From Hyphomicrobiales bacterium (GTDB lineage Bacteria; Pseudomonadota; Alphaproteobacteria; Rhizobiales; BM303), in NCBI GenBank assembly GCA_002869085.1, contig PKTQ01000194.1:1-39309 (forward strand): a stretch of DNA of 39,309 bases. Reading direction: 5' to 3'. Both the position numbers and the translations under genes were made by a program. The notes beneath the pieces were generated by a model. That model was given only the letters and a program-made list of their open reading frames with translations, was not told where the DNA came from and ran no database searches. This document shows, piece by piece, positions 1 to 39,309 of the stretch. Position 1 is the stretch's first letter. Every line of letters begins with the position of its first letter.

Positions 1-95
1 ATCGGCCTTGGCCTTGGCGGCTGCGGCTTCCTCATCGGCCTTGGCCTTGGCGGCTGCGGCTTCCTCATCGGCCTTGGCCTTGGCCTTGGCTTCCT
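1..95. repeat. 33-bp in-frame tandem repeat, left copy
   Basis: Tandem 33-bp units (core atcggccttggccttggcg, then gctgcggcttcctc) encode an 11-residue Ala/Lys/Asp/Glu unit on the minus strand. Bases 1-52 are identical to 39258-39309. The last unit decays near position 95. Confidence 0.9.
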
Positions 96-246
96 TTTCC
101 GCTTTGCCCTCACCCTTCTCCGCCCAGCCATTCTTGACGGCCACATCAGCCAGATCCCCGGTGAGCTCATCACCTTTGTTGAACAGGCGCGGGTGGCATT
201 CGCCATCCGGAACGCCGCGAAACGGCTTTTTCACAATAATCGCCAC
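1..246 (-). CDS. Repeat-rich head-operon protein, N-terminal part (crosses contig ends)
   Basis: This is the start of a small structural-operon protein that runs off the left edge and resumes at 39309. The start is GTG at 246, preceded by AAGGAATTCACC. The first ~45 residues form a compact domain (begins MAIIVKKPFRGVPDGE). After it comes an Ala/Lys/Asp/Glu-rich tail made of an 11-residue unit, AKAKADEEAAA. If the 52-base terminal overlap is merged, the frame continues to TAG at 39180 and gives about 107 residues. The gene lies between the decoration-like gene and the phiE125 gp8-like connector, so a head role is likely but unproven. The repeat number is uncertain because the contig breaks inside the repeat. 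I know no specific family function. Confidence 0.7.
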   Translation of the reverse strand, partial: MAIIVKKPFRGVPDGECHPRLFNKGDELTGDLADVAVKNGWAEKGEGKAEKEAKAKAKADEEAAAAKAKADEEAAAAKAKAD

Positions 247-263
247 GGTGAATTCCTTTCATG

Positions 264-293
264 AAAAAGGGGCAGCCGCGACCGGCCGCCCCT
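264..293 (-). terminator. Hairpin with T-run between decoration and linker genes
   Basis: On the minus strand AGGGGC and GCCCCT pair around an inner GGCC/GGCT stem, followed by TTTTTC. It lies between the stop at 320 and the GTG at 246. It may attenuate the late transcript rather than end it, because the operon continues. Confidence 0.5.
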
Positions 294-319
294 GCAACGC
301 TCAAGCAGTTGGCCCAGAC

Positions 320-754
320 CTAAATCTGATCCGCCTGCGGATTGTCGGTGCCGCGCAACAGAGCCACAGCCGCCATCGGCGTGGCCGTGCCATGGGTGCC
401 GGAGAAATCGGGCACCAGTTGCAGATAGCGTTTCGAGCCGCGATAGCCAAAGCGATAGACCGCCGCGGCGGCGTGAGCCGCAACCAGCGACTTGACAATG
501 CCGCCGGTCGCCACCGATGCGCCCAACACATCGGCATCGGCGACAGCGGTATAGGTGCTGTCATCATCGGATTCGGTGAGCTTGTATTCGATCTTATTGG
601 TGGCGTCGAAGGTGATACCACCCGCGCCGATTTCGAGAACGAATTCGGCGCCGTCATAACCTTTCAGATCGATTGTCACCGCCGTGGGATCAGCGTCAAG
701 GGCCGCCGCCGCGATGGCAACGACAGCCTTCATATTTGAATGAAAGTCTTTCAT
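320..754 (-). CDS. Putative capsid decoration / small head protein
   Basis: A 144-residue acidic protein directly downstream of the capsid gene and upstream of the connector genes, where HK97-type phages carry decoration or head-completion proteins. ATG at 754 is chosen over GTG at 760 because AAGGACGTGAAA places the Shine-Dalgarno at good distance only for the ATG. The middle (VTIDLKGYDGAEFVLEIGA ... EYKLTESDDDSTYTAV) looks like the beta-rich small proteins often found in this position in alphaproteobacterial prophages. No catalytic motif is seen. The cement role is inferred from position only. Confidence 0.6.
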   Translation of the reverse strand: MKDFHSNMKAVVAIAAAALDADPTAVTIDLKGYDGAEFVLEIGAGGITFDATNKIEYKLTESDDDSTYTAVADADVLGASVATGGIVKSLVAAHAAAAVYRFGYRGSKRYLQLVPDFSGTHGTATPMAAVALLRGTDNPQADQI

Positions 755-832
755 TTTCACGTCCTTTTCAGAAACTCAGAGACGGCGGCGAACTGGAGGC
801 CACCGGGCCAGAGTTGAATGGTTAAGGTGAAA

Positions 833-854
833 CGGCGGCGGAACACCGCCGCCG
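833..854 (-). terminator. 9-bp perfect hairpin after capsid gene
   Basis: CGGCGGCGG / CCGCCGCCG with a 4-base loop lies just past the capsid stop (871). On the minus strand only TTTC follows, so it is a weak terminator or an mRNA-stabilising 3' hairpin that would favour abundant capsid message. Confidence 0.45.
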
Positions 855-870
855 CAATAGTGTCAGCCCG

Positions 871-2289
871 TCAGGTCGCGCACTTCAACAGCTTGATGGC
901 CTCGAAGTTCTGGACCCCGCCGCCGACCTGCTTGGTGGTGTAGAAGTGGACATAGGGCTTGTTGGTGAAAGGATCGCGCAACACCCTGGCACCCATCCGG
1001 TCGACAATCAGATAACCGCGATTGTAATTGCCAAACGCCATCGGGATGGCATTGGCGCCGAGCGCGGGCATATTGTCATCAGTCACCGCCGGCTTGCCGA
1101 GAATGGTCGCAGGCATATCGACACCGGTCGGCGGCGCCCACAGATAATTGCCCTGGCCATCCTTGAACTTGCGCACCGTACCCATCACGGCATCGGAGAT
1201 CAGGAAGCTGGCCCCGTTGCGATACCCGGCTTTCAGCGCATAATAAAGATCGATAATCGCATCGGCCGGATTGGAGCTGGCAAAACCAGCGGCACCGCCC
1301 GTGGCGATAAAGCCCAGCTTGCCCCAGGCATAGGCCGAATCGGCGACTGTGTCATAGCCGCCGATCATGCCGCGCGGCTTGCTCACACCGTCGCCGGTGA
1401 TAAAAGCTGCACCTTCCTGCTCGGCAAACTCGATGGCAACTTCATCACCGAGCCACTGCTCAATGTTGAAGCTGGGATCATCCAGCGCGCGCTGGGTGAC
1501 AGCCGGATTCGCATAGATTTCCATGGCCTGGAAGATCAGTTCACGCAAAACCGCCGTGTCGGTTTCAGGGCGGCTTTCGCGCTCACCAACCCAACCCGAG
1601 CCGGTGCCACCCATGTTGACCAGCTTCCTATATTCATGGCTGGAAATGGTGATAACCCGCGAAAGTCCGCGCATCGCCGAGACGGTGCCGAGAACGCGGG
1701 TGATTTCGCTGTCCATTTCCGGCGTCACGAGATAGCCGCCATCCGGATTGGAATCGGTGGTCAACGCCGCTTTGACAGCAAGATCGCCAAGGTCAGCCAC
1801 TCCGGCACGGTCACCGCGGCGAAACCAGGAATTGAACGCCTTGTTATATTCCGCCACAGCGGCGTTGACGGGCTCGCCGGCGCCGCCGCCCAGCCGAAGC
1901 GCGGCCAGCGAAGCATTCACCTCATCGAGCGACTTTTGCAGATTGGTGATTTCGGCATTGATGCGGTCCACCTTTTCGGTCTGCACCACATCGGCGAATT
2001 TGGCGTCGATGCCTTTCAGTTCCGCTTCACGCTCGGCCTTGAATTCCTCGAAGGTTTTCTGCAGCTCGGCGAGAATTTTTTCCGCCGTGCCGGCATCGGC
2101 CCGCACACCGTAAAGCCCGCGCGCGCGAGCATTGAGCGGGGTCATCATCGCCGTGGCCGTGATCACATCCATGTGGAACGGAACCCGGCCGAGTTCGGCC
2201 GTCAGGTCGAAAGCCCAGGCATCAGCAATGCCAAAGCCGGCAAGCGCCAGCACCGCAAACGCGATGGCTGCTGTGAGAAAGTATTTCAT
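871..2289 (-). CDS. HK97-fold major capsid protein with signal-peptide-like leader
   Basis: A 472-residue major capsid precursor of the HK97 family. From about residue 70 to 130 there is a charged coiled-coil delta/scaffold region (AEKILAELQKTFEEFKAERE). The capsid fold follows from about 170 (DGGYLVTPEMDSEI, then GSGWVGERESRPETDT, and later AFGNYNRGYLIVDRMG). It follows the protease gene by nine bases. The start is firm: GAGGTGAAACT precedes ATG 2289. Oddly, the first 27 residues read like a secretory signal (MKYF, a hydrophobic stretch, then ADAWA). No ribosome site precedes the internal ATGs at the end of this leader. The protease would be expected to remove leader and delta domain during maturation. 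Confidence 0.92.
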   Translation of the reverse strand: MKYFLTAAIAFAVLALAGFGIADAWAFDLTAELGRVPFHMDVITATAMMTPLNARARGLYGVRADAGTAEKILAELQKTFEEFKAEREAELKGIDAKFADVVQTEKVDRINAEITNLQKSLDEVNASLAALRLGGGAGEPVNAAVAEYNKAFNSWFRRGDRAGVADLGDLAVKAALTTDSNPDGGYLVTPEMDSEITRVLGTVSAMRGLSRVITISSHEYRKLVNMGGTGSGWVGERESRPETDTAVLRELIFQAMEIYANPAVTQRALDDPSFNIEQWLGDEVAIEFAEQEGAAFITGDGVSKPRGMIGGYDTVADSAYAWGKLGFIATGGAAGFASSNPADAIIDLYYALKAGYRNGASFLISDAVMGTVRKFKDGQGNYLWAPPTGVDMPATILGKPAVTDDNMPALGANAIPMAFGNYNRGYLIVDRMGARVLRDPFTNKPYVHFYTTKQVGGGVQNFEAIKLLKCAT

Positions 2290-2298
2290 AGTTTCACC

Positions 2299-3147
2299 TC
2301 AGTTTTTGAGAGTTTCGATCAGCCGCTGAACATCAGCGACACTCACACCTGCATCGCGCTCGGTGGTGGGGCTTGCATCGCGCCGGGCCCCTACGCCCAT
2401 TTCCTGCATCATGCGGGAACGGTCATTTCTTGAAAAACCAGCCCGAGCCAAAGCGGCTTCGGTCTGGCGGCGGGCCATAAGGCCCTGATTTTCTGCTTTG
2501 GCATCCGCCTCGATGGCTTCGATGCCCTCATCGACGATATCGGCAAACCCGTGCTTGACGGCTTCACCTGGCCCCATGAAGGTTTCAGCGTCCATCAGAT
2601 CTTCGATATCCTTGCGGGCCTGGCCGGTGCGCGCCTCGTAAATGTCGGCAATCGCGCTGTCGAACTGATCAAACAATCCTGCAGCCTCGCGCATATCATG
2701 GCGGTTTCCGACCACCATGCCCCAGGCGTTATGCACCATCATGAAGGTGCCAAGGCCCATGCGGATTTCATCGCCGGCCATGGCGATGATCGAGGCTGCC
2801 GAGGCCGCCCAGCCTAAAACCTCGATCGTGACCTTTGCCTTGTGCTGGCGCAGCAGATTATAGATTGCAATGCCCTCGAACATATCGCCGCCGGGCGAGT
2901 TGATCAGCACCGTAACATCGCGCTCACCGATGGACCGCAGCGCGCCGGCCATGCGCTTTGCCGTGAAGCCGCCACCCGTCCACCAGTCCTCGCCGATCAC
3001 ATCGAGAATGCTGATTGTGGTTTCATCCTCACTTGCCGCCAGCATCGGAGTGTCGGCCCATTTGGTCAGCACATCGCTGGGCGCATCCCATTGGTAGTTT
3101 TGCGGGCGCGGAAAAGTTTTTGCTTCAGGCAGATGGCGCAGGCTCAT
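2299..3147 (-). CDS. Prohead protease, ClpP-like (S14 family)
   Basis: A serine protease of the Clp/crotonase-fold prohead type, 282 residues, that would cleave the capsid delta domain during maturation. Visible motifs are NSPGGD at 83-88 (oxyanion strand), the nucleophile region GWAASAAS with Ser116, and MVHNAWG with His139. ATG 3147 follows AGGAGAGACAAGCG. The open frame extends further upstream to 3261, but that part lies wholly inside the portal gene and has no better ribosome site. It overlaps the portal 3' end by 23 bases, indicating tight coupling. The C-terminal ~90 residues are charged and may act as a scaffold or targeting tail. Confidence 0.92.
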   Translation of the reverse strand: MSLRHLPEAKTFPRPQNYQWDAPSDVLTKWADTPMLAASEDETTISILDVIGEDWWTGGGFTAKRMAGALRSIGERDVTVLINSPGGDMFEGIAIYNLLRQHKAKVTIEVLGWAASAASIIAMAGDEIRMGLGTFMMVHNAWGMVVGNRHDMREAAGLFDQFDSAIADIYEARTGQARKDIEDLMDAETFMGPGEAVKHGFADIVDEGIEAIEADAKAENQGLMARRQTEAALARAGFSRNDRSRMMQEMGVGARRDASPTTERDAGVSVADVQRLIETLKN

Positions 3148-4411
3148 CGCTTGTCTCTCCTGTGTTGTCTGGCTGCGCCCCGGCTGTGTTCGGCGGATCG
3201 TAATACTCACCGCCACGGCCATCCGGACGCGGATTTTGATCTTCGAGGGCGCGGACTTCATCCGGGCTGAGAACGCCCCATGTCAGCATGGCCACGTAAT
3301 ATGCCTGGCGAGATTTGATATCGCCGCGCACCAGAGCCTTGCGGTTGAACCTGGTATAAATCCCCTTGTCGGACTCGCTCACCAGATCCCGGTCAGCGCT
3401 TTCTTCCCAGGTGGTCAGATGATCTTCGAGCGTATAAGTGACAAAGCCGATTGACTGCTGCTCAATGCCGCTGCCCCAGCTGGTGGTTTTCTCGGTATCG
3501 CCGAGCATGTGAGGAGGAACCCCGAAGAACATCGCGATATCTGCCCGCGTGAATTTGCGGCTTTCAATCCACTGTGCGTCCTCTGCGGTCATGGACAGCT
3601 TTGCTATGTCCATGCCCTCTTCAAGGATCAGCGATTTGCCCTCGCTATCACCACCGGAACGGAATGCTTCAAGGGAAGCGCGCAGAAATTCCTGGCCTTC
3701 CTTGCCAAGGTGCTTTGGATGTTTCAGCACCGAAGAAGGACGCAATCCGTTTTTGAAGGTCGAGGCCCCGTGCTGTTCCATAGCGAGCGATAGGCCGACA
3801 GTTTCACGGGCATATTCCAGCACCGACACACCATGAACCCCGTCGAGCGACAACCCGACCAGATGCATGACCTCAGCCTGCTTGAGAATGGTTACACCGC
3901 CATCTTTGCGCCTGTACTCATAGACCAATGAAAAATCATCAGCTTGTTTGCAGGTCACCCGATCTGGGTGAAGCGGAATGATTTCCTGCACCATGCCGCG
4001 CGAGCGGCTGATCATTGCATAGGCAGTGCCCCGCAACAGCAAATGCGCCTGCATCATGCGCTTGAACTGCGATGGCGTTTGCCAACGGTTTGGGCGCTTT
4101 CGCAAAATCCGCCATAGCGGATGGTCTGATGCTTCCTCGCGAGTTTTATCATCGATGCGGCGCATCACCGACAAAGGCAGATTCGCCACCGCGCCAGCAA
4201 TGATCCGGATACAGGCATAAACCGCCGCCACCCGCATGGCGGAATCCGCCGTTACTGATGGGCCGGCAATTGATTGAACCGCATTGGCAATGGCTTTCGA
4301 AAGATCGTCGGACGTGGCGATAATCTTGCCGCCGCCGGCATCCTGCACCGCGGCGCGCGGGGATGCGCCCCCGGCAGCCATGCGGCCACCCAGCCATTGA
4401 AGAAAGCCCAT
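3125..4411 (-). CDS. Portal protein, HK97 family
   Basis: A 428-residue portal subunit, the dodecameric ring at the packaging vertex. Recognisable parts include VYACIRIIAGAVANLPLSV near residue 68, a central HLLLRGTAYAMISR, and FFGVPPHMLGD near 295, all typical of HK97-type portals. The C-terminus is Pro/Asp/Glu-rich and disordered. ATG 4411 has AAGGACAAAAAC upstream and lies ten bases after the terminase stop. The order terminase, portal, protease, capsid is the classical one. Confidence 0.95.
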   Translation of the reverse strand: MGFLQWLGGRMAAGGASPRAAVQDAGGGKIIATSDDLSKAIANAVQSIAGPSVTADSAMRVAAVYACIRIIAGAVANLPLSVMRRIDDKTREEASDHPLWRILRKRPNRWQTPSQFKRMMQAHLLLRGTAYAMISRSRGMVQEIIPLHPDRVTCKQADDFSLVYEYRRKDGGVTILKQAEVMHLVGLSLDGVHGVSVLEYARETVGLSLAMEQHGASTFKNGLRPSSVLKHPKHLGKEGQEFLRASLEAFRSGGDSEGKSLILEEGMDIAKLSMTAEDAQWIESRKFTRADIAMFFGVPPHMLGDTEKTTSWGSGIEQQSIGFVTYTLEDHLTTWEESADRDLVSESDKGIYTRFNRKALVRGDIKSRQAYYVAMLTWGVLSPDEVRALEDQNPRPDGRGGEYYDPPNTAGAQPDNTGETSDEPAPSA

Positions 4412-4421
4412 GTTTTTGTCC

Positions 4422-6134
4422 TTAAAGGATCAGCGCGCCGCGCCCTTGATAAACGGTGGGTCCGGACGCCACCGGGTTGCGGCTCATTAGTGAAAACGCA
4501 TTGAACAGCGCAATCAGCGGGTCAATCTTGGCCGATCCGCTGACCTGCTTTGTGATCAGAATAGCCGACCCGCGCCGCTCGGCCCGGGCATTGCCCACGC
4601 ACCAGGTCATAAGGTCGGAGCCGTCATGCCACAATGTGCCGCTTTTCAGTTTGCGTTCGGCGCCCTGAATATTGCCAGAGAGGCGATAGCCCTGCGGCAC
4701 GGCCACCATCAGATCGTCCGGAATGCCCCGGCCCGACATTTCGTCGACGATCACCGCCACGCCGACCGGATCAAGACCGATAGCCGCATCCTCCGGGAAC
4801 AGGCCCGCCTGATAAACCGTCTCGATCATCTCCCCAAGTTCCTCGATATCCTGGGTCGAATAATCGCATATCGTCATCTGGCCGGTATCCGCCAAATCCT
4901 GCAGCCGTCCTGCAATTTCTTTCCGGCGCTCCAGCACATCAGGATGCGCCCAGGCATATTGCCAGCACAGCCAGTCTTTCGTTACCTTGTCCCGCCCGAT
5001 CAGTGACAGACCGAGCAGATCGTCGAGCCCGCCGCCGTCGATGCCGGCCGTAATGACCTCGCAGCGCTCAATCAGCGTTTCAATGCTCAACCCTTCCGGA
5101 TCAGCAGCATCAGGCCAGTATGGCGCGCCGGCCCAGCCATCGGTTGTCAGCGCTACGCCGATCTGAATGTTCAGATGCTGGCTGGCCCAGATCGACAGAG
5201 CCTCGACACCAGTTGCCTGCGCTTCTCGGAATTTTGTAACCAGGCGGGGCAAGGCGATCGACCTGTCCAGATTTGGCAGTACCATTCTCCAATTCTCTGG
5301 ATCTTCCCAGGGGCGCTCCTTTGCGGACTGGAAGTCCATGGGAAACTCATACAGCATCGGCAGCGTGTCGGTGCCAAGAACTTTTCCGTCACGGATCTGG
5401 CGGGCAAGGCGCAGATCATCGGCAAACACACCAGCCGGAGGGCTGTCTGACTGCGTCGTGATAATGATCACAAAGCCTTCCTCGTTCGGAAGCACACCGC
5501 CATCGATCTGCGTCATGACCTTGCGGGCATATGAAATTTTACCGAGCTCGTGTTCCTCGTCGATCAGCACCCCGACCGGCTTTGAACCGACAAGCACCTT
5601 GTTATCAAATGACCTGATTTTCAGTTCCGCGCCGTTCGCCCGATCCTTAATCGTCTTGACATGATCCCGACACTGAAATTTCTTTGACAGCCATGGATCA
5701 GCCTCGATAATTCCGCTGGCCTGATCATAAGCCAATTCTGCAACGGCCTGAGTTGGCCCTATCAGCAGAAATTCGGCATTTGGCCGCCTGTTCCGCAACA
5801 GCGCCGTGACCATGATCGCCGCACCATTGGTGGTCTTTGAATTTTTCTTCGGGACAAGCTGGAAAAACTTCCGAACCGTCCTGTCGATAATGACGCTCCG
5901 ATCATCCGACATGACCACAGTGCCAAAAACGACCCGAACAAAACTGCGAGCCCAATCTCCCCCGACCTCGCCAAAAGTCGGTTTTCCAGGAACATCCGGC
6001 AATCGCAGCCTGTCAAATACCTCAACCGCGAGACGGGCCTCAACTTCATCGATCGGCAAGTCCGGAGGCAAAGGCGGCCGACCCGCTTTCAGCAAGTCAA
6101 ACCAGTTCGGGCACGACAAGTCCAGCGCTTCCAT
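4422..6134 (-). CDS. terL: Terminase large subunit (TerL), HK97-like
   Basis: A 570-residue packaging motor: an N-terminal ATPase pumps DNA and a C-terminal RNase H-like nuclease cuts it. A deviant Walker A is seen as VPKKNSKTT at about 94-102, and Walker B as VGVLIDEEHE at about 187-196. Candidate nuclease acidic residues occur in AGIDGGGLDD, in DPVGVAVIVDEM and in the C-terminal region. The start ATG 6134 follows the TerS stop by one base (TGA-T-ATG), so translation is coupled. The HNH gene upstream suggests a cos-type HK97-like packaging module, but I could not identify a cos site. Confidence 0.95.
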   Translation of the reverse strand: MEALDLSCPNWFDLLKAGRPPLPPDLPIDEVEARLAVEVFDRLRLPDVPGKPTFGEVGGDWARSFVRVVFGTVVMSDDRSVIIDRTVRKFFQLVPKKNSKTTNGAAIMVTALLRNRRPNAEFLLIGPTQAVAELAYDQASGIIEADPWLSKKFQCRDHVKTIKDRANGAELKIRSFDNKVLVGSKPVGVLIDEEHELGKISYARKVMTQIDGGVLPNEEGFVIIITTQSDSPPAGVFADDLRLARQIRDGKVLGTDTLPMLYEFPMDFQSAKERPWEDPENWRMVLPNLDRSIALPRLVTKFREAQATGVEALSIWASQHLNIQIGVALTTDGWAGAPYWPDAADPEGLSIETLIERCEVITAGIDGGGLDDLLGLSLIGRDKVTKDWLCWQYAWAHPDVLERRKEIAGRLQDLADTGQMTICDYSTQDIEELGEMIETVYQAGLFPEDAAIGLDPVGVAVIVDEMSGRGIPDDLMVAVPQGYRLSGNIQGAERKLKSGTLWHDGSDLMTWCVGNARAERRGSAILITKQVSGSAKIDPLIALFNAFSLMSRNPVASGPTVYQGRGALIL

Positions 6135-6135
6135 A

Positions 6136-6600
6136 TCAGTTCACCACATCGCGCGGCGGCACCAACCCTTCCCAGCCAGACACCGGCTGCTCAGTATCGC
6201 GGCGCAGCTGCTCTTTTTTCCCCACTTGCTGTTTCTCGGTTTCAACCTTGCGCTTGAAAGTCTCCGGCATAAGATTGGACATAATCCGCGCGAACTCTTT
6301 CAGCGCCGCCACATTGCCGGCTTCGCACTGATTCCAAAGCAACACCAGATGCCTGGCGTTGACCATGTCCGCCGCAGTGTCCCGGGTCTTAAGAATAGAA
6401 AAATAATGCTTCCGCAGCGTGGGAACTGTGATGTTCATCGCGGCCGCAATCCTTTGATTGCTCCAGCCCTGCGCCAGTAACAGCATGACTTTATTAGCGT
6501 TTTCTGGACTTGCTATATGTTCCGGGCGCCCCCGTCGCCCATGGCCTGCCGGGATAAGCACCCCGAACAGGTCATAATTCTCGCCTGAAATTTCTGTCAT
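6136..6600 (-). CDS. terS: Terminase small subunit (TerS)
   Basis: A 154-residue DNA-recognition subunit for packaging. A helix-turn-helix is visible around MLLLAQGWSNQRIAAAMNI, followed by a helical oligomerisation region and a charged C-terminus (KRKVETEKQQVGKKEQLRRD). ATG 6600 (MTEISGENYD) is chosen because the longer in-frame extension runs into the HNH gene region and has no good ribosome site. Its own site is weak (TAGG well upstream). It ends one base before TerL. Confidence 0.85.
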   Translation of the reverse strand: MTEISGENYDLFGVLIPAGHGRRGRPEHIASPENANKVMLLLAQGWSNQRIAAAMNITVPTLRKHYFSILKTRDTAADMVNARHLVLLWNQCEAGNVAALKEFARIMSNLMPETFKRKVETEKQQVGKKEQLRRDTEQPVSGWEGLVPPRDVVN

Positions 6601-7138: not shown

Positions 7139-7609
7139 CTATTTTTGAGATAATTCGTAAGCCCTTGATATTCCGTTATTGTAACAGCGCCGCGCTGTCT
7201 TTTCCGAACACCGAAACCGCTGTGCGATTCTCCACCATGAGACCCCATAGGCCCGGAGCGTGATCACCAGATACTCCCGCTTGCCGCCGCGCATATTCTT
7301 CAACCTGGTGAGCAGCGCCAGCGCCGGCAACATATCGTCAACGTCATGGGCGCTCGCCTCAAACCGTATCCTGGCCGGCGCGGCGGCATATGCATCCCGT
7401 GCGGCTTGCACGATCTCCGGCCAGCCAGATCCCCGCCCCGCGACCATGGCCAGTTCCCGGTCCGGCTGCGCCGCCAATGTGAGAATTGCCCGGCGGATGC
7501 GTTCGGCGATATTGGCCTTAGCCGATTGTTCCGCCGCAGCCCGATCAGCGCTGGCCCGGCGGTATTGCCTGACCTGATCAGCTGGAACGATATCCCAATG
7601 CTCGCTCAT
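7139..7609 (-). CDS. DUF6362-like HTH protein
   Basis: 156 residues. The C-terminal part (REYLVITLRAYGVSWWRIAQRFRCSEKTARRCYNNGI) is a clear helix-turn-helix of the kind often placed just before the terminase genes in alphaproteobacterial prophages, annotated as DUF6362. A role in late-gene control is inferred from HTH and position. Its start overlaps the stop of the initiator gene by four bases (ATGA), so it belongs to the replication operon transcript. Confidence 0.7.
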   Translation of the reverse strand: MSEHWDIVPADQVRQYRRASADRAAAEQSAKANIAERIRRAILTLAAQPDRELAMVAGRGSGWPEIVQAARDAYAAAPARIRFEASAHDVDDMLPALALLTRLKNMRGGKREYLVITLRAYGVSWWRIAQRFRCSEKTARRCYNNGISRAYELSQK

Positions 7610-8640
7610 TCCGCCGCCTCCTGGTCCTGGTGCTGATCACTGTCCTGCCCGCCGTCATGCCCATGCCCTGGCGGCCATTCGCTCGGGAATGTCCACCCGT
7701 CGAATTTCTTGCCGCCGACCTCGCCGCCCGCCTCGATGGTCTGCATCACCGCCACCGACTTTCCGCGCTGGATTTTGTATTCCCTCCATGCCTCCCATTG
7801 CGGGGTGCCTGGGCGGAGTGTCACCGAACGGTTGGCGATCTCGGCCCGCGCCGCCGCAGGATCGTCGGCAAACGACGCCCAGCGCTTTTCGGCGAGCCAG
7901 CGCCAGACATGGGTGACGCCCAGCCCTGGCCGCTGTCGAAGGAACTCGGCATATCGCGGCAGCGCCGCATAGGCCGCCTCCATTTCGGAGCGTTTGATCT
8001 TGTACCACTCCGACCGGGCTTTCTTTTTGCTGTGATTGGCCGTCTCAGGATATTCTTTCCAGAACAATTCGAACAAATCATCGTCCGAATGCCGAACAGG
8101 CTTCGGACAAGAGTTTGTTATTGTCTGTGTATTTTCTTGTATTATATGTGTGCCAAGCTTTGGCACTTGAAGTGGTCGTGGTTGGCACGGGGGGGTGTCA
8201 CTGGTGTCACGTGACAAACCCGCTTCACCAGGTGCCAATTTGGCACATGGAGACCCATCATCCTCGTAACCGACCATATCTTCATCTGCGGATTTTTCGC
8301 CGGTTTCTGACACCACAACCCGCTCATGCGGGAAACCATTCCGGTCCACGACAACGTCCGGAAATTCATGATCGTCAACTGCAAGTAAAATCAGATTTGA
8401 ACATCTCCGACCGTCCGCCCCGCGGCGGTAGTATCGCGCCAGTAAGCCCATCCGCTCAAGATCCTGAACGCAGCGGATAATTGTCCGGCGGCTCTGGTTG
8501 GTTTCAACGCTGAGGGTTTTCTGCGACACCCAAGCGTGGTTCTTATCGTCGGCATAGGTGGCATAGGTGAGCAGCACCGCCTTGCGCCCAACCGTTCTTG
8601 TATCCTGCTTTCTCGCCCAGGATGATGCGTGATCGCTCAT
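7606..8640 (-). CDS. Replication initiator, HTH domain (lambda O-like layout)
   Basis: 344 residues. The N-terminal ~100 residues form a winged helix-turn-helix (AWVSQKTLSVETNQSRRTIIRCVQDLERMGLLARY), as in phage O-type initiators. Residues ~105-195 are a low-complexity linker. The C-terminal half contains FELFWKEYPETANHSKKKA and HVWRWLAEKRW, common in phage replication proteins. The DNA encoding the linker holds an AT-rich stretch and palindromic repeats (8111-8246) that look like the origin itself, as in the lambda O gene. It is coupled to both neighbours by ATGA overlaps. It probably recruits the host helicase, since no helicase gene is present. Confidence 0.75.
   Translation of the reverse strand: MSDHASSWARKQDTRTVGRKAVLLTYATYADDKNHAWVSQKTLSVETNQSRRTIIRCVQDLERMGLLARYYRRGADGRRCSNLILLAVDDHEFPDVVVDRNGFPHERVVVSETGEKSADEDMVGYEDDGSPCAKLAPGEAGLSRDTSDTPPCQPRPLQVPKLGTHIIQENTQTITNSCPKPVRHSDDDLFELFWKEYPETANHSKKKARSEWYKIKRSEMEAAYAALPRYAEFLRQRPGLGVTHVWRWLAEKRWASFADDPAAARAEIANRSVTLRPGTPQWEAWREYKIQRGKSVAVMQTIEAGGEVGGKKFDGWTFPSEWPPGHGHDGGQDSDQHQDQEAAE
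8111..8246. other. Candidate replication origin inside the initiator gene
   Basis: An AT-rich block (about 8111-8150) sits next to a palindrome GTGCCAA-GCT-TTGGCAC (8150-8166). Further along come a half site TTGGCAC (8182-8188), two direct GGTGTCAC copies (8194-8201, 8203-8210) leading into GTCACGTGAC (8206-8215), and a second perfect palindrome GTGCCAATTTGGCAC (8232-8246). All lie in the region coding the initiator's linker. Clustered iterons plus an AT-rich unwinding element inside the initiator gene is the lambda ori arrangement. The origin call is inferred. Confidence 0.6.
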
Positions 8641-8900
8641 AACCCCTCCACATCAAAAACCAGAGTTAAGACCCGATACCCTCTTTCATTCGAAACTTTG
8701 ACAAAGCCGTCACTTATCAGCGCCTTAAGGTGTTTCCTCACCGTTCTAACCGAATAGCCGTAAAGACCCGCAATCTCATCATCAGATGCCAAGCATCGGT
8801 TGTCATCAAAGGCCAAAAATGCGATCGATGTAAACACGGCTTTGCGTGTCGACTGCCCAACCATGACCTGCATGGCCTTTCGATATAAATCTCCGCTCAT
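8637..8900 (-). CDS. Small winged-helix protein of the replication operon
   Basis: 87 residues with a winged HTH: DDEIAGLYGYSVRTVRKHLKALISDGFVKV is a recognition helix plus wing. It lies between the leader-controlled first gene and the initiator with four-base overlaps on both sides. It resembles the N-terminal domain of the initiator, so it may be a duplicated DNA-binding partner or a local regulator. The role is unknown. Confidence 0.7.
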   Translation of the reverse strand: MSGDLYRKAMQVMVGQSTRKAVFTSIAFLAFDDNRCLASDDEIAGLYGYSVRTVRKHLKALISDGFVKVSNERGYRVLTLVFDVEGL

Positions 8901-9127
8901 GCCGCCTCTCCTTTTTCCGCAAAGGCCGCCGCATAAACATCCGCAACATTTGCCTTGAGCGCCTTGGATGCGCGCCAGATCCCTTCCTCAAGTTCGGCGG
9001 CCAAGCTTCGATATTCATCCTTGAGATAAATCGCATCGAAGGCGCAAATCAGCTCATGCAGAAGGCCCTGGGCCTCCTCCAGTTCGGTAGCTATGTCAAA
9101 TAGGGATTTCGGGTGTGGCTTGGTCAT
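8897..9127 (-). CDS. First gene of replication operon, target of the C4-type RNA
   Basis: 76 residues, mostly helical and acidic (begins MTKPHPKSLFDIATELEEAQ). No family function recognised. The start is ATG 9127 with an excellent site, TAGGAGGTCTACC. The open frame continues far upstream, but that part crosses the leader RNA region and the opposite-strand gene and is not coding. Its Shine-Dalgarno is embedded in CCGTAGGAGG, which is complementary to CCTACGG in the C4-like RNA just upstream. Control of this start would affect the whole coupled operon. Confidence 0.75.
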   Translation of the reverse strand: MTKPHPKSLFDIATELEEAQGLLHELICAFDAIYLKDEYRSLAAELEEGIWRASKALKANVADVYAAAFAEKGEAA

Positions 9128-9133
9128 GGTAGA

Positions 9134-9183
9134 CCTCCTACGGTTGGTTGCGCAAACCAGCCGCCAGAGAGACCAATCCCTGG
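9134..9183 (-). promoter_or_regulatory. C4 RNA target in the leader of the replication operon
   Basis: Hairpin CCAGGGATTGGTCTCTCTGG (9183-9164) displays TTGGTC in its loop. CCGTAGGAGG (9143-9134) then includes the Shine-Dalgarno for ATG 9127. Both segments are complementary to the C4-like RNA segments at 9197-9208 and 9214-9220. Confidence 0.7.
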
Positions 9184-9196
9184 TGGCCGGACGAAC

Positions 9197-9322
9197 AAGA
9201 TTGGTCTTACCGCCCGTAGGAACGGCGAGCCCGAGGGCTCTCCTGAACGCCCGACCATAAAAAGGAAACCGCGCTTTCTGGGCGCGGTTCGAGCGCCTAC
9301 GGACAGAAGGGAGACCAATCCC
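9197..9322 (-). ncRNA. c4: C4-like antisense RNA (phage immunity RNA)
   Basis: Read on the minus strand, CCGTAGG (9302-9296) pairs with CCTACGG (9220-9214). This stem encloses two hairpins: AACCGCGC/GCGCGGTT (9267-9289) and GAGCCC-TC-GGGCTC (9227-9240). A short hairpin AAGACCAATCTT (9208-9197) follows. This layout matches C4 antisense RNA of phages P1/P7 and related P4-type immunity RNAs (Rfam C4). Its two pairing segments, CCTACGG and AGACCAATC, are complementary to CCGTAGG and GATTGGTCT in the downstream leader. The order is right for an antiparallel duplex over the Shine-Dalgarno of the gene starting at 9127. A GGGATTGGTCTCCC copy (9322-9309) also lies just upstream. The mature RNA ends are not determinable here. 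Confidence 0.8.
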
Positions 9323-9374
9323 CGCACGCCCTTTTTCGACGTGCTGGTCAGCTTTGAACCGCTGACTTGTCCCT

Positions 9375-9403
9375 AATTTGCGCTGATTTGCCGCTATTGT
9401 CAA
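9375..9403 (-). promoter_or_regulatory. Candidate promoter for C4 RNA and replication operon
   Basis: On the minus strand TTGACA (9403-9398) is followed after 17 bases by CAAATT (9380-9375), a poor -10. The transcript would begin near 9368 and run through a GTCAGC/GCTGAC hairpin (9366-9347) into the C4 region. Intergenic stretch 9128-9475 holds this promoter, the RNA, its target and a divergent promoter; no protein gene is supported in it. Confidence 0.4.
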
Positions 9404-9417
9404 TTTTGGGCTAGACT
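9388..9417 (+). promoter_or_regulatory. Candidate promoter of the TagO-like moron
   Basis: TTGCCG (9388-9393), 18 bases, TAGACT (9412-9417). It overlaps the divergent C4 promoter. The gene starts at 9476 with GGAGGG upstream. Confidence 0.4.
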
Positions 9418-9475
9418 CTGCAACCTTCCAGTGCATGATTTCGCCATAAGAAAATATTTTCTGGAGGGTGTCCCC

Positions 9476-10108
9476 ATGAAGATTGTCAGCCTTTTTTTTG
9501 CAATCGCTGCCGCTTTGTGCTTGGCACCTCAGGCTCGCGCCACCGACAATCCAAAAGCCTGCGCCGCTATCAAGAAAGACGCGGACCGCCTGGAATGCTT
9601 TGACCTCATTTTCAAAAAAACCATCATCTCCAGCCCTGCGAACGACACTAAATACAAAGGCAATGGAAGTTGGGATGTTTACATAGAAAAGTCTAAGATT
9701 GACGACACTGAAAACGTGCGCCTGCGCCTCAGATCGGACAAAAAACACCAAACCCGTTTCAGACGTGAAGAATTTATCGAGCTGAACATTCTTTGCCGGG
9801 AAAACAAAACCGACATGTATGTCAACTTTGGAAGCTCCTTCATGTCCGACACACTTGGAGCGGGAAAAGTCACCTACCGAATTGACGCCAGAAAAGCCAG
9901 GAAACGACAGTTCACAGGCTCGACTGATCATTCCTCCCTGGGTCTTTGGGGTGGCGGCAATGCTATTCCATTCGTCAAGCAGCTTTTCGGCGCCAGGAAG
10001 CTTCTGATCCGCGCCGTGCCTTATTCCGAAAATGCCATCACGGCAGATTTTTCCATTACCGGAATTGAAAACGCCATCAAGCCGCTGCGCAAAGCCTGCC
10101 ACTGGTAA
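9476..10108 (+). CDS. TagO/VasI-like periplasmic protein (moron)
   Basis: 210 residues with a clear Sec signal: MKIVSLFFAIAAALCLAPQARA, cleavage expected after ARA. The mature start KACAAIKKDADRLECFDLIF and the GSWDVYIEKSKIDDTENVRLRL segment match the pattern of the TagO/VasI family, known mainly as a type VI secretion accessory protein. No other T6SS gene is nearby. It stands alone on the plus strand between two leftward replication genes, has its own ribosome site (GGAGGGTGTCCCC) and looks more A-rich than its neighbours, all typical of a lysogenic-conversion moron. The function in the prophage is unknown; envelope modification or superinfection exclusion is plausible. A generic secreted protein is the alternative. 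Confidence 0.6.
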   Translation: MKIVSLFFAIAAALCLAPQARATDNPKACAAIKKDADRLECFDLIFKKTIISSPANDTKYKGNGSWDVYIEKSKIDDTENVRLRLRSDKKHQTRFRREEFIELNILCRENKTDMYVNFGSSFMSDTLGAGKVTYRIDARKARKRQFTGSTDHSSLGLWGGGNAIPFVKQLFGARKLLIRAVPYSENAITADFSITGIENAIKPLRKACHW

Positions 10109-10113
10109 GCCGT

Positions 10114-10410
10114 TCATCCCCTCGCCTCCTTTCCGTCCGCCTCGATCGGCCAATGTGCCGGGCGGCGCACAATCAGCCACGGCCCCGTCCTGGCGTGATT
10201 GCCGATCTCCAGCACTCCGCGCCGGTGCAGGCTAAAAGCGATGCGCCATGCCTCCTGCTGTGACAACTCGCAGTCCCGCGCGAGCTTGCCCATGTCGACC
10301 GCAACGGCGCGGTCAAACTTGGCCTGACAGGCCAGCGCCAGCGCCACCATGCGCCGCTGCGGCCCGCCCCATCTCTGCTCAAAAACAGCATGAACCGTGG
10401 TTTTGTGCAT
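10114..10410 (-). CDS. Small winged-helix DNA-binding protein
   Basis: 98 residues. LARDCELSQQEAWRIAFSLHRRGVLEIGN is a winged HTH. It follows the DnaA domain IV-like gene. Two starts are possible: ATG 10416 (ATGA overlap with that gene's stop) and ATG 10410, which has AGGGGG at better spacing; 10410 is given. It is probably a replication or early regulatory protein. Confidence 0.65.
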   Translation of the reverse strand: MHKTTVHAVFEQRWGGPQRRMVALALACQAKFDRAVAVDMGKLARDCELSQQEAWRIAFSLHRRGVLEIGNHARTGPWLIVRRPAHWPIEADGKEARG

Positions 10411-10412
10411 GT

Positions 10413-10847
10413 TCATTCCCCCTCGACAGATTCTTGCCGCGCCAGCTCGTCGAAGCGGCGCAATCCGTGCATGATGCTGGTATGACACCGGCCGCCCATG
10501 GCCCTGCCGATTTCGGGAAGCGACAGATGCGGGCAATTGTGGCGGATCAGCGCCGCGGCATGCCACCGCGCCGCGACCAGCGACTTGAACCGCCTCTGCC
10601 CGATGATTTCATGCGCGTGGCAATGCCAGGCCCGCGCCGTGGCTTTGATGATCCATTCCGGCTCCAGCGGCGGATATCCCCCCGCCGCATCCCGGTAAAA
10701 ATAAACCTCCGGTGTGCCGGGCGGCACCGGCCCACCCACGCTAAGCAAAATCCGGCACTCGAGGCGCAGAATATCGCGGCCCTTTAACCCAGGATTCGGT
10801 GGCCAGGCCGAACGTATCCGGGTTTGCGCCTGGTACAGACCGATCAT
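10413..10847 (-). CDS. DnaA domain IV-like protein
   Basis: 144 residues. The C-terminal half (IGQRRFKSLVAARWHAAALIRHNC ... LSLPEIGRAMGGRCHTSIMHGLRR) has the pattern of the DnaA DNA-binding domain: the basic HTH and the GGR-HT-S signature helix that reads DnaA boxes. There is no AAA+ domain. The N-terminal ~65 residues are unrecognised. The start ATG 10847 has GAGGTGGCGGA upstream. It could bind the phage origin or host DnaA boxes. It shares an upstream region with hicAB, transcribed away from it. Confidence 0.75.
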   Translation of the reverse strand: MIGLYQAQTRIRSAWPPNPGLKGRDILRLECRILLSVGGPVPPGTPEVYFYRDAAGGYPPLEPEWIIKATARAWHCHAHEIIGQRRFKSLVAARWHAAALIRHNCPHLSLPEIGRAMGGRCHTSIMHGLRRFDELARQESVEGE

Positions 10848-10951: not shown

Positions 10952-10984
10952 ACAGACATTAAAGAGACACCGAGGAAAGCCGAA

Positions 10985-11179
10985 ATGACCCGCGAACAGC
11001 TTATCAAGACCCTGAAAAAAGAAGCCCGGAAGGCTGGCGTTCGCTTCGAAATCGACACCAAAAAGGGCAAGGGCAGCCACTACCGGGTCAAATACGGCAA
11101 CCGGGTTTCGACAATCCAAAGCGGTGAACTCAGCCCCCTTCACGTCAAGACAATTCGCCGCCAGCTGGGCCTGAAATGA
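10985..11179 (+). CDS. hicA: HicA-type mRNA interferase toxin
   Basis: 64 residues, the normal size for HicA, a double-stranded-RNA-binding-fold ribonuclease that cleaves mRNA and arrests growth. KGKGSHYRVKYGN carries the catalytic His32 in the G-S-H motif. ATG 10985 follows GAGGAAAGCCGAA. An upstream in-frame extension to 10799 overlaps the promoter and is not coding. Toxin-first order followed by the antitoxin 42 bases later is the classical hicAB order. Confidence 0.88.
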   Translation: MTREQLIKTLKKEARKAGVRFEIDTKKGKGSHYRVKYGNRVSTIQSGELSPLHVKTIRRQLGLK

Positions 11180-11221
11180 CCCAGCCCGCCGGGGCTTTAA
11201 ACAACTGAAAAGGCTAAACGG

Positions 11222-11662
11222 ATGATGCAGTTTGAATATCGCGCAAAGCTTACCACAGACCCAGAAGGCGGCTATCTCGCCACCTTCCCCGATGTCCCCG
11301 AGGCGATCACCTCCGGCGCCACCAAAGCGCTGGCGCTTGAGTCCGCCGCCGACGCCCTGGCCGTGGCCCTGCTTGGCCGCATGGAAGACGGCGACGACCT
11401 GCCCGCCGCCTCGGCTTCGGGCCGTGGCCTTCACCCCGTGGCCGTTCCGGCGCCGGTCGCCGCCAAGCTGGCGGTCATGGCGGCGTTCAAGGCTTCGGGC
11501 TGGGCAAAGATCAAACTGGCCGAGGAACTTGGCGTGAACGAAAAGGAAGTGCGCCGCATCCTTGATGCGAGCCACAACACCCAGCTGGGCCGCTTGAACG
11601 CCGCCATGCAAGCCCTGGGCGGCCGCCTTATCGTCTCGGCCGAATGGAAGCTGGCGGGCTGA
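11222..11662 (+). CDS. hicB: HicB-type antitoxin and autorepressor
   Basis: 146 residues. The N-terminal half has the degraded RNase H-like HicB fold (YRAKLTTDPEGGYLATFPDVPEAITSG) that binds HicA. The C-terminal half has an HTH (KIKLAEELGVNEKEVRRILD) for operator binding, so it belongs to the HTH type. Starts at ATG 11222 or 11225 share AAAAGG upstream. It ends nine bases from the convergent methyltransferase stop. It likely binds the CGGAC-N6-GTCCG sites at 10898 and 10931. Confidence 0.88.
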   Translation: MMQFEYRAKLTTDPEGGYLATFPDVPEAITSGATKALALESAADALAVALLGRMEDGDDLPAASASGRGLHPVAVPAPVAAKLAVMAAFKASGWAKIKLAEELGVNEKEVRRILDASHNTQLGRLNAAMQALGGRLIVSAEWKLAG

Positions 11663-14279: not shown

Positions 14280-14878
14280 TATCCCCCCTCCCCTGGTGTA
14301 GCGTTTATGTCGGGGCCGTCACCAAGTCCGCGCCGCGATTTTTCATTCAGCCAAACACCGACTTCACGGTCAAAAGCCTCTTGCTCCCGCGCCGCGATCT
14401 CCCCGGCCCCGCCGCCATATCCGCAGATATCGCGGAAATCGTCGGGGTTGAACGCGCCCTCGTCGGCCCGCACCGTTTTGTATTGAGCCATCATCAGCGC
14501 CGCCTGTTTGGCGGTGATCTTGACCCCGAGAAAGCCGGACCACATCGCCGCCACGCGGCGGTGCAGCGTCAGCCAGTCGCCGTGTTGCTCGGCCCGCTCG
14601 CCGGAGACAAGCCCGGCCGCCTCGCGGCATATCCGGTCGGCTGTGACAGCCTGAAAATCGTCGGGCGCGGCAGGATCAGCGATCATGTCATCCGGGCAGG
14701 GTTGAGGCCGGCCGGCGGCGCGGGGCTGCGCCCCCTGGCGCGCAATCTGGTGCCGGATCGTTCCAGCTGCGCCGGATACAGCATCCCATCCCCGCCCATT
14801 TCTTGACGGCGGCGGCGGCGGATCTGATTTGGGTGCCGTGTCAGGTGCTGTCGGCTGAAATCTGTAATTCCAAATCAT
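14279..14878 (-). CDS. DUF6378-containing protein
   Basis: 199 residues. The N-terminal ~85 residues are Pro-rich and poorly ordered. The C-terminal ~110 residues (HGDWLTLHRRVAAMWSGFLG ... FNPDDFRDICGYGG) have the pattern of the phage DUF6378 domain, of unknown role and common in alphaproteobacterial phages. ATG 14878 overlaps the previous stop (ATGA). Confidence 0.7.
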   Translation of the reverse strand: MIWNYRFQPTAPDTAPKSDPPPPPSRNGRGWDAVSGAAGTIRHQIARQGAQPRAAGRPQPCPDDMIADPAAPDDFQAVTADRICREAAGLVSGERAEQHGDWLTLHRRVAAMWSGFLGVKITAKQAALMMAQYKTVRADEGAFNPDDFRDICGYGGGAGEIAAREQEAFDREVGVWLNEKSRRGLGDGPDINATPGEGG

Positions 14879-15357
14879 TTCTCGCCCCCATGCGTGGCAA
14901 CGAAGTCCTGAATCATGGGCAGCAAGGCCCGGGCCGATGCAACAAGCTCGGCCCTTTCGCGGTGGTCGATGCGGCCGTCCTCAAGCGCGGCGGCGAATTG
15001 GGCCATCAGGTCAGATATCTGCCGGTTGACCGTTAAGGCCGAAACCGCGTCCGGCTCCAGCCGCGCCGCCCCGCCGAACCCGGCCAGGGCGAGAACCCGA
15101 TTTATGAATTCGTCGGGCAGCACCGCCGCGATGGTGAGAAACTTGGCCAGGCTCGGCCCGTTTGCCCCGGCGTGGTAGCCTTTGACGGTGGCGAAATCCA
15201 AAGCCGTCGCCGCCGCCAGCGCCTCGACGCTCCAGGGCTTTCCCCGGCCCACATGCACCCGAAGGGCGTCCGAAAACGCCTCGGCGACGAAACCACCATC
15301 CAAAGACGCCCCTTTGGCTTTTGCATTCTGGCCGCCGCAGCCGCAGTCTCGTGTCAT
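14875..15357 (-). CDS. CII/CP76-like regulatory protein (tentative)
   Basis: 160 residues starting MTRDCGCGGQNAKAKG. ATG 15357 has GAGGAA eight bases upstream; the longer frame is unlikely. The segment WSVEALAAATALDFATVKGYHAG is HTH-like, and the C-terminal QISDLMAQFAAALEDGRIDHRERAEL resembles the helical region of phage CII (CP76)-type regulators. Position, third gene after the Cro-like gene on the PL transcript, suits a lysis-lysogeny regulator. The assignment is by pattern and is not firm. Confidence 0.5.
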   Translation of the reverse strand: MTRDCGCGGQNAKAKGASLDGGFVAEAFSDALRVHVGRGKPWSVEALAAATALDFATVKGYHAGANGPSLAKFLTIAAVLPDEFINRVLALAGFGGAARLEPDAVSALTVNRQISDLMAQFAAALEDGRIDHRERAELVASARALLPMIQDFVATHGGEK

Positions 15358-15383
15358 GAAAAAGGTTCCTCGATCTCGCCCGG

Positions 15384-15572
15384 CTATTTGCCCGAGCCCC
15401 ATTTCAGCGCTGGCAGCGTCACCGCGCCGCGCAGCCTTTCGTTTCGTGCCGCGATGCACCCGGCCCGGCCGGCGGCGCTGCGCCGCGCCGCCACCGCATC
15501 AAAGCCCAGCGCCCGCGCCTGATGCGCCCTGGCCCGGTTTTCGGGCGAGCAATTTGACGGAAGCGGGCTCAT
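15384..15572 (-). CDS. Small basic protein, unknown
   Basis: 62 residues, Arg/Ala-rich (NRARAHQARALGFDAVAARRS). It starts by ATGA overlap with the Cro-like gene stop, so it is probably translated from PL. No family seen. Confidence 0.5.
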   Translation of the reverse strand: MSPLPSNCSPENRARAHQARALGFDAVAARRSAAGRAGCIAARNERLRGAVTLPALKWGSGK

Positions 15573-15805
15573 TGCGCGGCCTCGCGCAAAGCTTTCCAGT
15601 TCATCCTGGTTTTCAGCTGATCTCCGACAGTCACCTTGCCTTCGGTTGCTGTCTCAATTCGCAGCATCATTTCAGACTTGGGCTGGTTTTCCCCGGTCTC
15701 ATAGCGCTGCAGCGTCCGGCCCGGATTTTTCCCGGTTATGCCGAACAATGCCGCGCATTCATCAAAGGATATTTTTTTGGCTTTGCGCCATTCGCTGAGT
15801 TCCAT
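15569..15805 (-). CDS. Cro-like XRE-family repressor
   Basis: 78 residues, begins MELSEWRKAKKISFDECAAL. An XRE-type HTH covers most of it, and the closing ~20 residues lack a dimerisation/protease domain, as in Cro. It is divergent from cI and is the first gene of the leftward early operon from PL. Its ribosome site is weak (GGTGCGG). It probably binds the CATAGC-type operators shared with CI. Confidence 0.75.
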   Translation of the reverse strand: MELSEWRKAKKISFDECAALFGITGKNPGRTLQRYETGENQPKSEMMLRIETATEGKVTVGDQLKTRMNWKALREAAQ

Positions 15806-15813
15806 AACCGCAC

Positions 15814-15842
15814 CATAGCGCATAATGCTATGTTTTAGTCAA
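15814..15842 (-). promoter_or_regulatory. PL promoter with embedded operator
   Basis: Minus-strand TTGACT (15842-15837), 17 bases, GCTATG (15819-15814). The operator CATAGC-N7-GCTATG (15814-15832) overlaps the -10 and the spacer. Its design is the same as PR at 17322. Confidence 0.75.
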
Positions 15843-15860
15843 GGGGAAATTTGCTGATAT

Positions 15861-15880
15861 CGCTATGTTGAGGCATAGCG
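15861..15880. promoter_or_regulatory. CI/Cro operator between cI and cro
   Basis: CGCTATGttgaggCATAGCG, perfect 7-bp arms around a six-base centre. It lies between PL and the cI start and overlaps the presumed -35 of the cI promoter, so it can mediate autoregulation. Confidence 0.75.
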
Positions 15881-15888
15881 TAAAGCGC

Positions 15889-15894
15889 TACAAT
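15889..15894 (+). promoter_or_regulatory. Presumed -10 of the cI maintenance promoter
   Basis: TACAAT lies only eight bases before the cI ATG (15903), and no Shine-Dalgarno precedes that ATG. Transcription would begin at or next to the start codon, giving a leaderless mRNA as for lambda cI from PRM. The -35 is poor (GTTGAG at 16 bp). Confidence 0.5.
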
Positions 15895-15902
15895 TTATAA
15901 TC

Positions 15903-16565
15903 ATGGCTGTTGACATCAAAAAATTCCGCAAACTTGCGAAACTCAATCAAGACCAAGTCGCCGAGCGGCTGGGACTTCACGTCACCAACTATAGCCGTCT
16001 GGAAAACGGGCATGTCGAGCTGACAATTCAGCGCCTTGAAGAACTGGCCGAAATATTCGGCACAACCACAGAAGCGATGGTTTCTGGCAAGATTGACATT
16101 GACCCACCCGAGCAACTTGAAGTCGATGAAACCCTGAAAATGCCGCCGCGCGAAAGCATGCCGCGCAACGTGCCGGTGCGCGGCACCGCCGCCGGCTCGA
16201 TCACCGGCGCCATTGAGATCAGCAGCGACCCGGTGGACTATGTCCGCCGTCCTCCCGGGCTTGGCGCTTCACCTGATGTTTATGCGATCTATGTCACCGG
16301 AGATTCCATGGAGCCGGCCCACCCTCATGGCGCGTTGCGATTCGTCCACCCGGGCCGCCCGGTCAGCGTCGGCGACACGGTGATTGTGATCACCAAGGAC
16401 GGCGAAAACGCGCCGCATACCGCTTACATCAAGACCATCCGCCGCCGCACAGGCAGCCACTATACCTTGTCGCAACTCAATCCCGAAGCGACGATTGAGA
16501 TCCCCACCGACAAGATTATCGCCACGCACAAAGTGCTGACCATGAACGATCTGTTCGGGGTGTAA
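15903..16565 (+). CDS. cI: CI-type repressor, XRE HTH plus S24 autoprotease
   Basis: 220 residues. The N-terminal XRE HTH is LNQDQVAERLGLHVTNYSRLENGH. A linker contains the Ala97-Gly98 cleavage pair (GTAAGSI). The S24 LexA/UmuD-type domain has Ser135 (TGDSMEP) and Lys177 (AYIKTI). All elements for RecA-stimulated self-cleavage are present, so the prophage should be SOS-inducible. It is transcribed rightward from the operator region at 15861 and convergent with the SNase gene three bases after its stop. It likely also acts on the operators near 17298 and 17334. Confidence 0.93.
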   Translation: MAVDIKKFRKLAKLNQDQVAERLGLHVTNYSRLENGHVELTIQRLEELAEIFGTTTEAMVSGKIDIDPPEQLEVDETLKMPPRESMPRNVPVRGTAAGSITGAIEISSDPVDYVRRPPGLGASPDVYAIYVTGDSMEPAHPHGALRFVHPGRPVSVGDTVIVITKDGENAPHTAYIKTIRRRTGSHYTLSQLNPEATIEIPTDKIIATHKVLTMNDLFGV

Positions 16566-39179: not shown

Positions 39180-39309
39180 CTATTTCCCGTTTTTGGGAGC
39201 CGCCTTGGCGGCTTCCTCATCGGCCTTGGCCTTGGCGGCGGCAGCGGCGGCTTCCTCATCGGCCTTGGCCTTGGCGGCTGCGGCTTCCTCATCGGCCTTG
39301 GCCTTGGCG
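39180..39309 (-). CDS. Repeat-rich head-operon protein, C-terminal part
   Basis: This is the continuation of the gene that starts at 246. It encodes the rest of the AKAKADEEAAA-type repeats and a short basic tail ending KAAPKNGK, with TAG at 39180-39182. Read straight across without merging the 52-base overlap, the frame is broken. Merging 52 bases (or 19, one repeat unit fewer) restores it. The connector gene starts three bases downstream at 39176, as expected for a head-gene operon. Confidence 0.7.
   Translation of the reverse strand, partial: AKAKADEEAAAAKAKADEEAAAAAAKAKADEEAAKAAPKNGK
39203..39309. repeat. 33-bp tandem repeat, right copy and terminal overlap
   Basis: The same repeat family as at the left edge, with one degenerate unit (ggcggcggcagcggcggcttcctc part). 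The last 52 bases duplicate window bases 1-52. This is typical of a circular assembly cut inside a repeat. It is not evidence for real physical ends. Confidence 0.9.

Follow-up and report, generated by a model that had tools for sequence, protein, structure and literature searches.

Is the replication operon of this phage controlled by an antisense RNA, and if so, by what means? The window, that is, the whole stretch of 39,309 nucleotides analyzed here, carries on its minus strand a region upstream of the ATG at 9127, for which the first-pass annotation had proposed a C4-type RNA and had asked for an Infernal run with the Rfam C4 model. That run matched RF01695 at 9179-9262 (minus strand) with 58.2 bits, where the cut-off is 45, and with an E-value of 7.1e-9 over the whole window. 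Nothing else in the window reaches an Rfam gathering threshold, and the 3.5-Mb host assembly has no second C4 match. Folded alone, the C4 antisense RNA has a predicted energy of -41.6 kcal/mol (z -4.5), and none of 200 shuffled sequences was as stable; in this fold the stem GGUCGGGCG/CGUCCGGCC closes a structure with two hairpins, which is the shape recognized by the Rfam C4 model. The stems covary, both sides being changed in 16 of 20 pairs in an alignment of 38 C4 sequences. I consider it likely that the locus is a complete C4/CI-type RNA immunity module that locks the replication operon by the mechanism proposed below.

The fold drawn in the first-pass annotation was a different one, a three-stem RNA closed by CCGTAGG/CCTACGG. 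When the whole leader is folded (9100-9350, minus strand), this stem does occur in the structure of lowest energy (-113.9 kcal/mol, z -4.3), but the drawing mixes the a1b1 target of the leader with C4: in the CCGTAGG/CCTACGG stem, b′ of C4 pairs with b1, the upstream target. Since the fold of the C4 family and the covariation use other stems, and the pairing is that of b1 with b′, the three-stem unit was rejected as the main fold. It is possible that it represents a conformation of the read-through transcript.

The pair of pairing words is present three times on the minus strand: in an IsrK/seqA/a1b1-like leader, in C4 itself, and in the Shine-Dalgarno region of ATG 9127. In the leader, a1 (GATTGGTCT, 9312-9320) and b1 (CCGTAGG, 9296-9302, the 5′ half of the supposed closing stem) are the complements of a′ and b′ of C4. 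The C4 model and the word search together place b′ (CCTACGG) in the loop of hairpin II at 9214-9220 and a′ (AAGACCAATCTT) around the core AGACCAATC at 9199-9207. Downstream, a2 is again GATTGGTCT and lies directly 3′ of C4 at 9170-9178, as found by word search and locus comparison, while b2 (CCGTAGGA, 9136-9143) overlaps the Shine-Dalgarno sequence GGAGG (9134-9138); the string CCGTAGGAGG at 9134-9143 spans this Shine-Dalgarno sequence, with the CCGTAGG word at 9137-9143. The loop words of C4 have perfect complements of 9 nt at +1 and of 8 nt at +36, around the ribosome-binding site of the first ORF, and their order fits a single antiparallel duplex with C4. The words and positions claimed from the letters alone were all recovered by word search, and the order claimed for one duplex was borne out. 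The count of copies needed correction, as the copies in C4 and downstream had been seen, and the upstream GATTGGTCT and a terminator-like hairpin at 9290-9266 had been missed. Neither GATTGGTCT/AGACCAATC nor CCGTAGG/CCTACGG has any other site on either strand of the 39,309 bases. Since the words are confined to three places, chance can be excluded as the source of the word pair.

Is this complementarity kept in other C4 loci? C4 matches at E up to 0.001 were found in 10 of 199 relatives and in 16 of 397 genomes of the order, 5 of 385 of the class, and 62 of 398 of the phylum, in samples that overlap. The best-scoring part of these matches was taken as the locus set (59 loci, 58 distinct). The pairing test required a complement of a′ of at least 6 nt within the 16 nt directly after C4 and a complement of b′ of at least 6 nt at +21 to +48. 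Of these 58 distinct, best-matching loci, 50 retain the two downstream complements, and the words differ between loci. When the C4 arms were swapped among loci in 300 permutations, the mean was 1.2 and the maximum 4 of 58. The eight loci that fail the test are L004, L007, L011, L018, L030, L035, L044, and L151. With complements of at least 7 nt, the first 49 loci have an upstream complement of a′ (a1) in 45 cases and of b′ (b1) in 33, and downstream complements of a′ in 45 and of b′ in 37, compared with 9-13% in a mismatched-locus control. Such variation of the words between phages, with the pairing retained, is expected under selection for pairing. Two further loci deserve mention. L145 (1400-1640), in another genome of the order, has a C4 module with the pairing words of the window in front of a different first gene, KilA-N-like by eye. 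In Escherichia phage D6, a second C4-like match (L156, 464-543, plus strand) scores 40.2 bits, below the threshold, and lies some 0.5 kb upstream of the main one.

The region upstream of C4 resembles a leader of known type. The isrK model (RF01394) matches at 9262-9344 (minus strand) with 30.2 bits (E 5e-4), below the curated cut-off of 50; position and words fit, so that the leader may act in an IsrK-like manner while standing outside the family. In a comparison of 29 C4 loci of the class, the window included, 20 (15 of 19 plus 5 of 10) have an isrK match immediately before C4 at E up to 0.5, none of them over the curated cut-off. All of eight phage records, taken from 48 found via the isrK consensus, have both isrK and C4. 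No match to c4-a1b1 (RF03163) was found in 8000-10500 at E up to 5, nor in the whole window at the gathering threshold.

A probable -35 box of a leader promoter, TTGACA, is seen directly at 9398-9403 (minus strand), followed after a 17-nt spacer by a weak candidate -10 box, CAAATT (9375-9380); CANNNT words occur at the same spacing in other loci of the class. A generic sigma-70 promoter scan found no promoter at the leader. Of the 29 class loci, again including the window, 26 have TTGAC in the interval from -160 to -100 before C4, compared with 7.4% of random 60-nt stretches. This test was prompted by a GTCAA word shared in an alignment of 18 loci, which mixed strands and was otherwise not used. 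Over the same promoter-like region lie two 16-nt direct repeats (9360-9396), 81% alike and 21 nt apart. A windowed repeat scan was excluded as a statistic, as it also fires on low-complexity GC repeats. The leader ends in an intrinsic-terminator-like hairpin at 9266-9290 (minus strand) with nine pairs and a CCTTTTT tail (one found, 0.6 expected in shuffles).

The terminator-like hairpin is located between b1 and C4. Does C4 act there rather than at the ribosome-binding site? It may be that early termination in the leader through a1b1 pairing is dominant and the cover of the Shine-Dalgarno sequence secondary, as the CI RNA of P4 acts by premature termination (excerpts of PMC4825925 and PMC10111431) and holds the P4 replication genes off in this way (same excerpt of PMC4825925). 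The predicted co-folding gain with C4 is larger for a1b1 (-5.8 kcal/mol) than for a2b2 (-1.3 kcal/mol), as this reading expects, although nested co-folding cannot represent loop-loop contacts. On the other hand, b2 lies over the Shine-Dalgarno sequence here, and most of 49 loci have their b2 at about +28 to +39, counted from C4, which would be needless if termination alone were at work. I regard the dominance of termination as rather unlikely. The duplex of C4 with a2b2 is predicted at -51.6 kcal/mol, while shuffled targets reach a mean of -43.7 and a lowest value of -59.2; as the sequence is GC-rich, this energy does not discriminate.

A second alternative concerns the leader RNA itself. The terminated RNA may be the active one and may behave like IsrK on orf45-anrP in Gifsy-1, either titrating C4 or opening the target and thereby activating the operon. 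The succession of leader, terminator, C4 region, and coupled small ORF matches the IsrK-STnc1160-orf45-anrP layout (as given in an excerpt of PMC4825925), and in the isolated target of the window phage the Shine-Dalgarno sequence is predicted to be already paired, with about 0.15 unpaired over b2. This closure is strong in the window but is not general: the mean unpaired value is 0.50 over 60 loci and 0.47 in shuffles. Closure of the Shine-Dalgarno sequence by a2 was thus rejected as a general feature, and this, together with the isrK match below the cut-off, makes an activating leader RNA an unlikely explanation.

What, then, would the C4 module control? The presumed direct target is a 76-aa ORF (8897-9127, minus strand), which has no match in Pfam or PHROG and does not resemble the first ORFs of other C4 loci. 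In a two-sequence BLASTP comparison with P1 Icd it gave E 0.002 over 34 residues, which was taken as chance. It is followed on the same strand by an 87-aa helix-turn-helix protein with an HTH_36 domain, resembling an O-like N-terminal half (8637-8900), a 344-aa lambda-O-like replication initiation protein (7606-8640; phrog_270 E 5e-24, HTH_36 E 4e-9), and a DUF6362 protein (7139-7609). Three ATGA overlaps link these first four genes. The replication genes claimed downstream of the RNA were thus found in the form of the lambda-O-like initiator. Beyond the DUF6362 gene lie genes for HNH, a probable small terminase, TerL, portal, and capsid; the probable small terminase is an HTH protein of phrog_12540, a family without a named function. 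The two HTH_36 neighbors at 8637-8900 and 7606-8640, both with matches to replication-initiator families, look like two copies of one gene, one truncated and the other full.

A short first ORF is common in the compared loci. It is at most 130 aa long in 43 of the 56 loci with a scorable first ORF, and these short ORFs are mutually unrelated. The next ORF of 60 aa or more begins at exactly -4 in 21 of the 43. No antirepressor gene, the mark of a P1-type C4 operon, is present in the operon at 7139-9127. Replication genes in the controlled operon, which mark the P4 CI type, are present here (phrog_270, 7606-8640), and no alpha-type primase was found there.

From position and gene order I infer that the RNA gates replication, and C4 very probably silences the replication operon through a block of translation, through termination, or through both. 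In the proposed mechanism, the promoter at about 9403-9375 (minus strand) would drive the leader, and most transcripts would stop at the 9290-9266 terminator as short IsrK-like RNAs bearing a1 and b1. Read-through transcripts would be processed into the C4 RNA (9262-9179), the loops of which would pair in trans with a2 and b2 of the leader and cover the Shine-Dalgarno sequence of the 76-aa ORF, while pairing of C4 with a1b1 would favor termination. Since the ATGA overlaps link the genes, silencing of the first ORF is proposed to silence those of the HTH protein, the lambda-O-like initiator, and the DUF6362 protein as well. Alongside its CI-type repressor, a resident prophage would in this way block both its own lytic replication and that of incoming phages sharing its pairing words.

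This protein repressor, which had been claimed for the phage from the letters alone, was indeed found: an HTH_3 and S24 peptidase protein of the CI type is encoded at 15903-16565 on the plus strand (phrog_4 E 1.7e-29; PF00717 E 5e-12). A CII-like gene with a weak match lies at 14875-15459. Between the repressor gene and the opposite gene (15780-15930) there are direct and inverted repeats of the CATAGCG/GCTATG type, which are likely operators; no operator common to the CI region and the surroundings of the C4 promoter was found. The phage also encodes an integrase and tail genes, and is a full siphophage with TerL, portal, and capsid. The ends of the window (1-52 and 39258-39309) are identical and lie inside a short alanine-rich tandem repeat. 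As the capsid genes are at the left end and the head-tail connectors at the right, the identical ends suggest that the window is a complete, circular or circularly permuted phage genome of about 39.3 kb. Several other genes were noted. A divergent gene beside the C4 promoter (9476-10108, plus strand) encodes a VasI-like protein (PF11319, E 4e-18; phrog_1848) and is probably a moron. A small protein with a DnaA C-terminal domain (PF08299, E 5e-13) is encoded in the early region (10413-10847, minus strand). HicA-like and HicB-like ORFs lie at about 10980-11662 on the plus strand, opposite to the early operon that contains them; the HicB match is weak (E 7.5e-4, under the cut-off) and HicA was judged by eye.

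Is the module a fixed part of this phage lineage? An IMG/VR contig (IMGVR_UViG_3300007102_000054, L060) is 99.9% identical to 36-6225 of the window. Of the IMG/VR loci with relatives of TerL or Rep of the phage, 0 of 89 gave C4 at E up to 0.05, many of these loci being short and possibly missing the homologous region. This argues that the module is not fixed in the lineage. No close relative of the Rep protein was found in phage records or confirmed among genome contigs, and nine distant ones were found in IMG/VR; the DNA of 8600-9420 has no similarity to phage records. The absence of C4 from the 89 related loci might also mean that the module is a decayed remnant of an older operon and controls nothing now. 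However, six pairing arms, both stems, the terminator, the promoter-like box, and the coupled frames are all intact, some of which would have been broken by drift, and decay is therefore very improbable. The reading of a working C4/CI-type module is preferred.

The arrangement of C4 before a replication gene is not limited to the window: at least two further phages of this bacterial order (L162 and L163) have it too. The survey of genes downstream of C4 covered 1.5 kb per locus and assigned part of the loci. An O-like protein lies downstream of C4, followed by TerL and portal, in L010/L162, while L012/L163 have a DnaD-like protein downstream and CI, Cro-like, and CII-like genes upstream. Primases are encoded downstream of C4 in L004, L013, L014, L022, and L033. 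Antirepressor families are also common there (AntA in 4 of 138 ORFs, KilA-N in 2, Bro-N in 1), and several PHROG anti-repressor families have three to five matches each among the ORFs downstream of C4. No account of a C4 RNA before lambda-O-like genes was found in the open-licence literature. It can be suggested, tentatively and with less than even confidence, that in CI/O-type phages of this order the C4 module was inserted into the replication operon itself, that the roughly 16 nt of its RNA code are free to change without a change in the CI repressor, and that the terminated leader is a built-in RNA antirepressor. If this is true, both immunity and lytic replication would answer to this code. 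Phages that have the 9-nt and 7-nt words in common are predicted to be mutually immune whatever their protein repressors, which offers a simple test system; cross-immunity with the window phage is predicted for L145 from its identical C4 words.

How does the locus compare with known systems? The first-pass annotation had inferred that the phage adds an RNA to its protein repressor and that this RNA controls replication in place of an antirepressor; neither is a new principle. P1 pairs its protein repressor C1 with C4 (PMC8546580, in excerpt), and the P1 annotation is consistent with this; for RNA control of replication genes, P4 CI is the precedent. With the immI region of P1/P7 (c4-icd-ant), the window shares the Rfam family, and with P1 the order a1-b1-C4-a2-b2-small first ORF (icd in the P1 annotation), the presence of a protein repressor, and nearly the same spacing after C4 (a2 +4, b2 +33, and ATG +51 in P1; a2 +1, b2 +36, and ATG +52 in the window). 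A 4-nt overlap couples the first ORF to the next gene, as annotated for icd-ant. P1 itself has C4, c4-a1b1 (51.0 bits), and a weak isrK match. In contrast to P1, whose operon encodes Icd and the Ant antirepressors, the window has an unrelated 76-aa ORF, the HTH protein, and the lambda-O-like initiator.

The Rfam profiles C4 and isrK pick up CI and seqA relatives (excerpt of PMC10111431), and the scan of P4 agrees, as its CI/seqA region gave 74.9 bits for C4 and 60.8 bits for isrK. As with the P4 CI RNA/seqA/seqC system, replication genes are the proposed object of silencing in the window. P4, however, is a satellite with the primase-helicase alpha, while the window is a full siphophage with an integrase and a CI-type repressor. 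The Gifsy-1 locus likewise has a short leader that terminates, an RNA formed by processing, and then a small ORF that is coupled, and the coupling of orf45-anrP has been demonstrated (both PMC4825925); in the window this order is read from the sequence. Gifsy-1 differs in that its operon is that of an antirepressor, and the leader of the window has only a sub-threshold isrK match. Citrobacter phage Shae_phiSM, a full tailed phage, also has isrK (66.6 bits), C4 (84.1 bits), a short ORF, and a replication gene, which encodes a P2-type replication endonuclease and not an O-like initiator. The locus of the window would thus extend the C4/CI principle to full-length lambda-like phages with replication initiators as the silenced genes.
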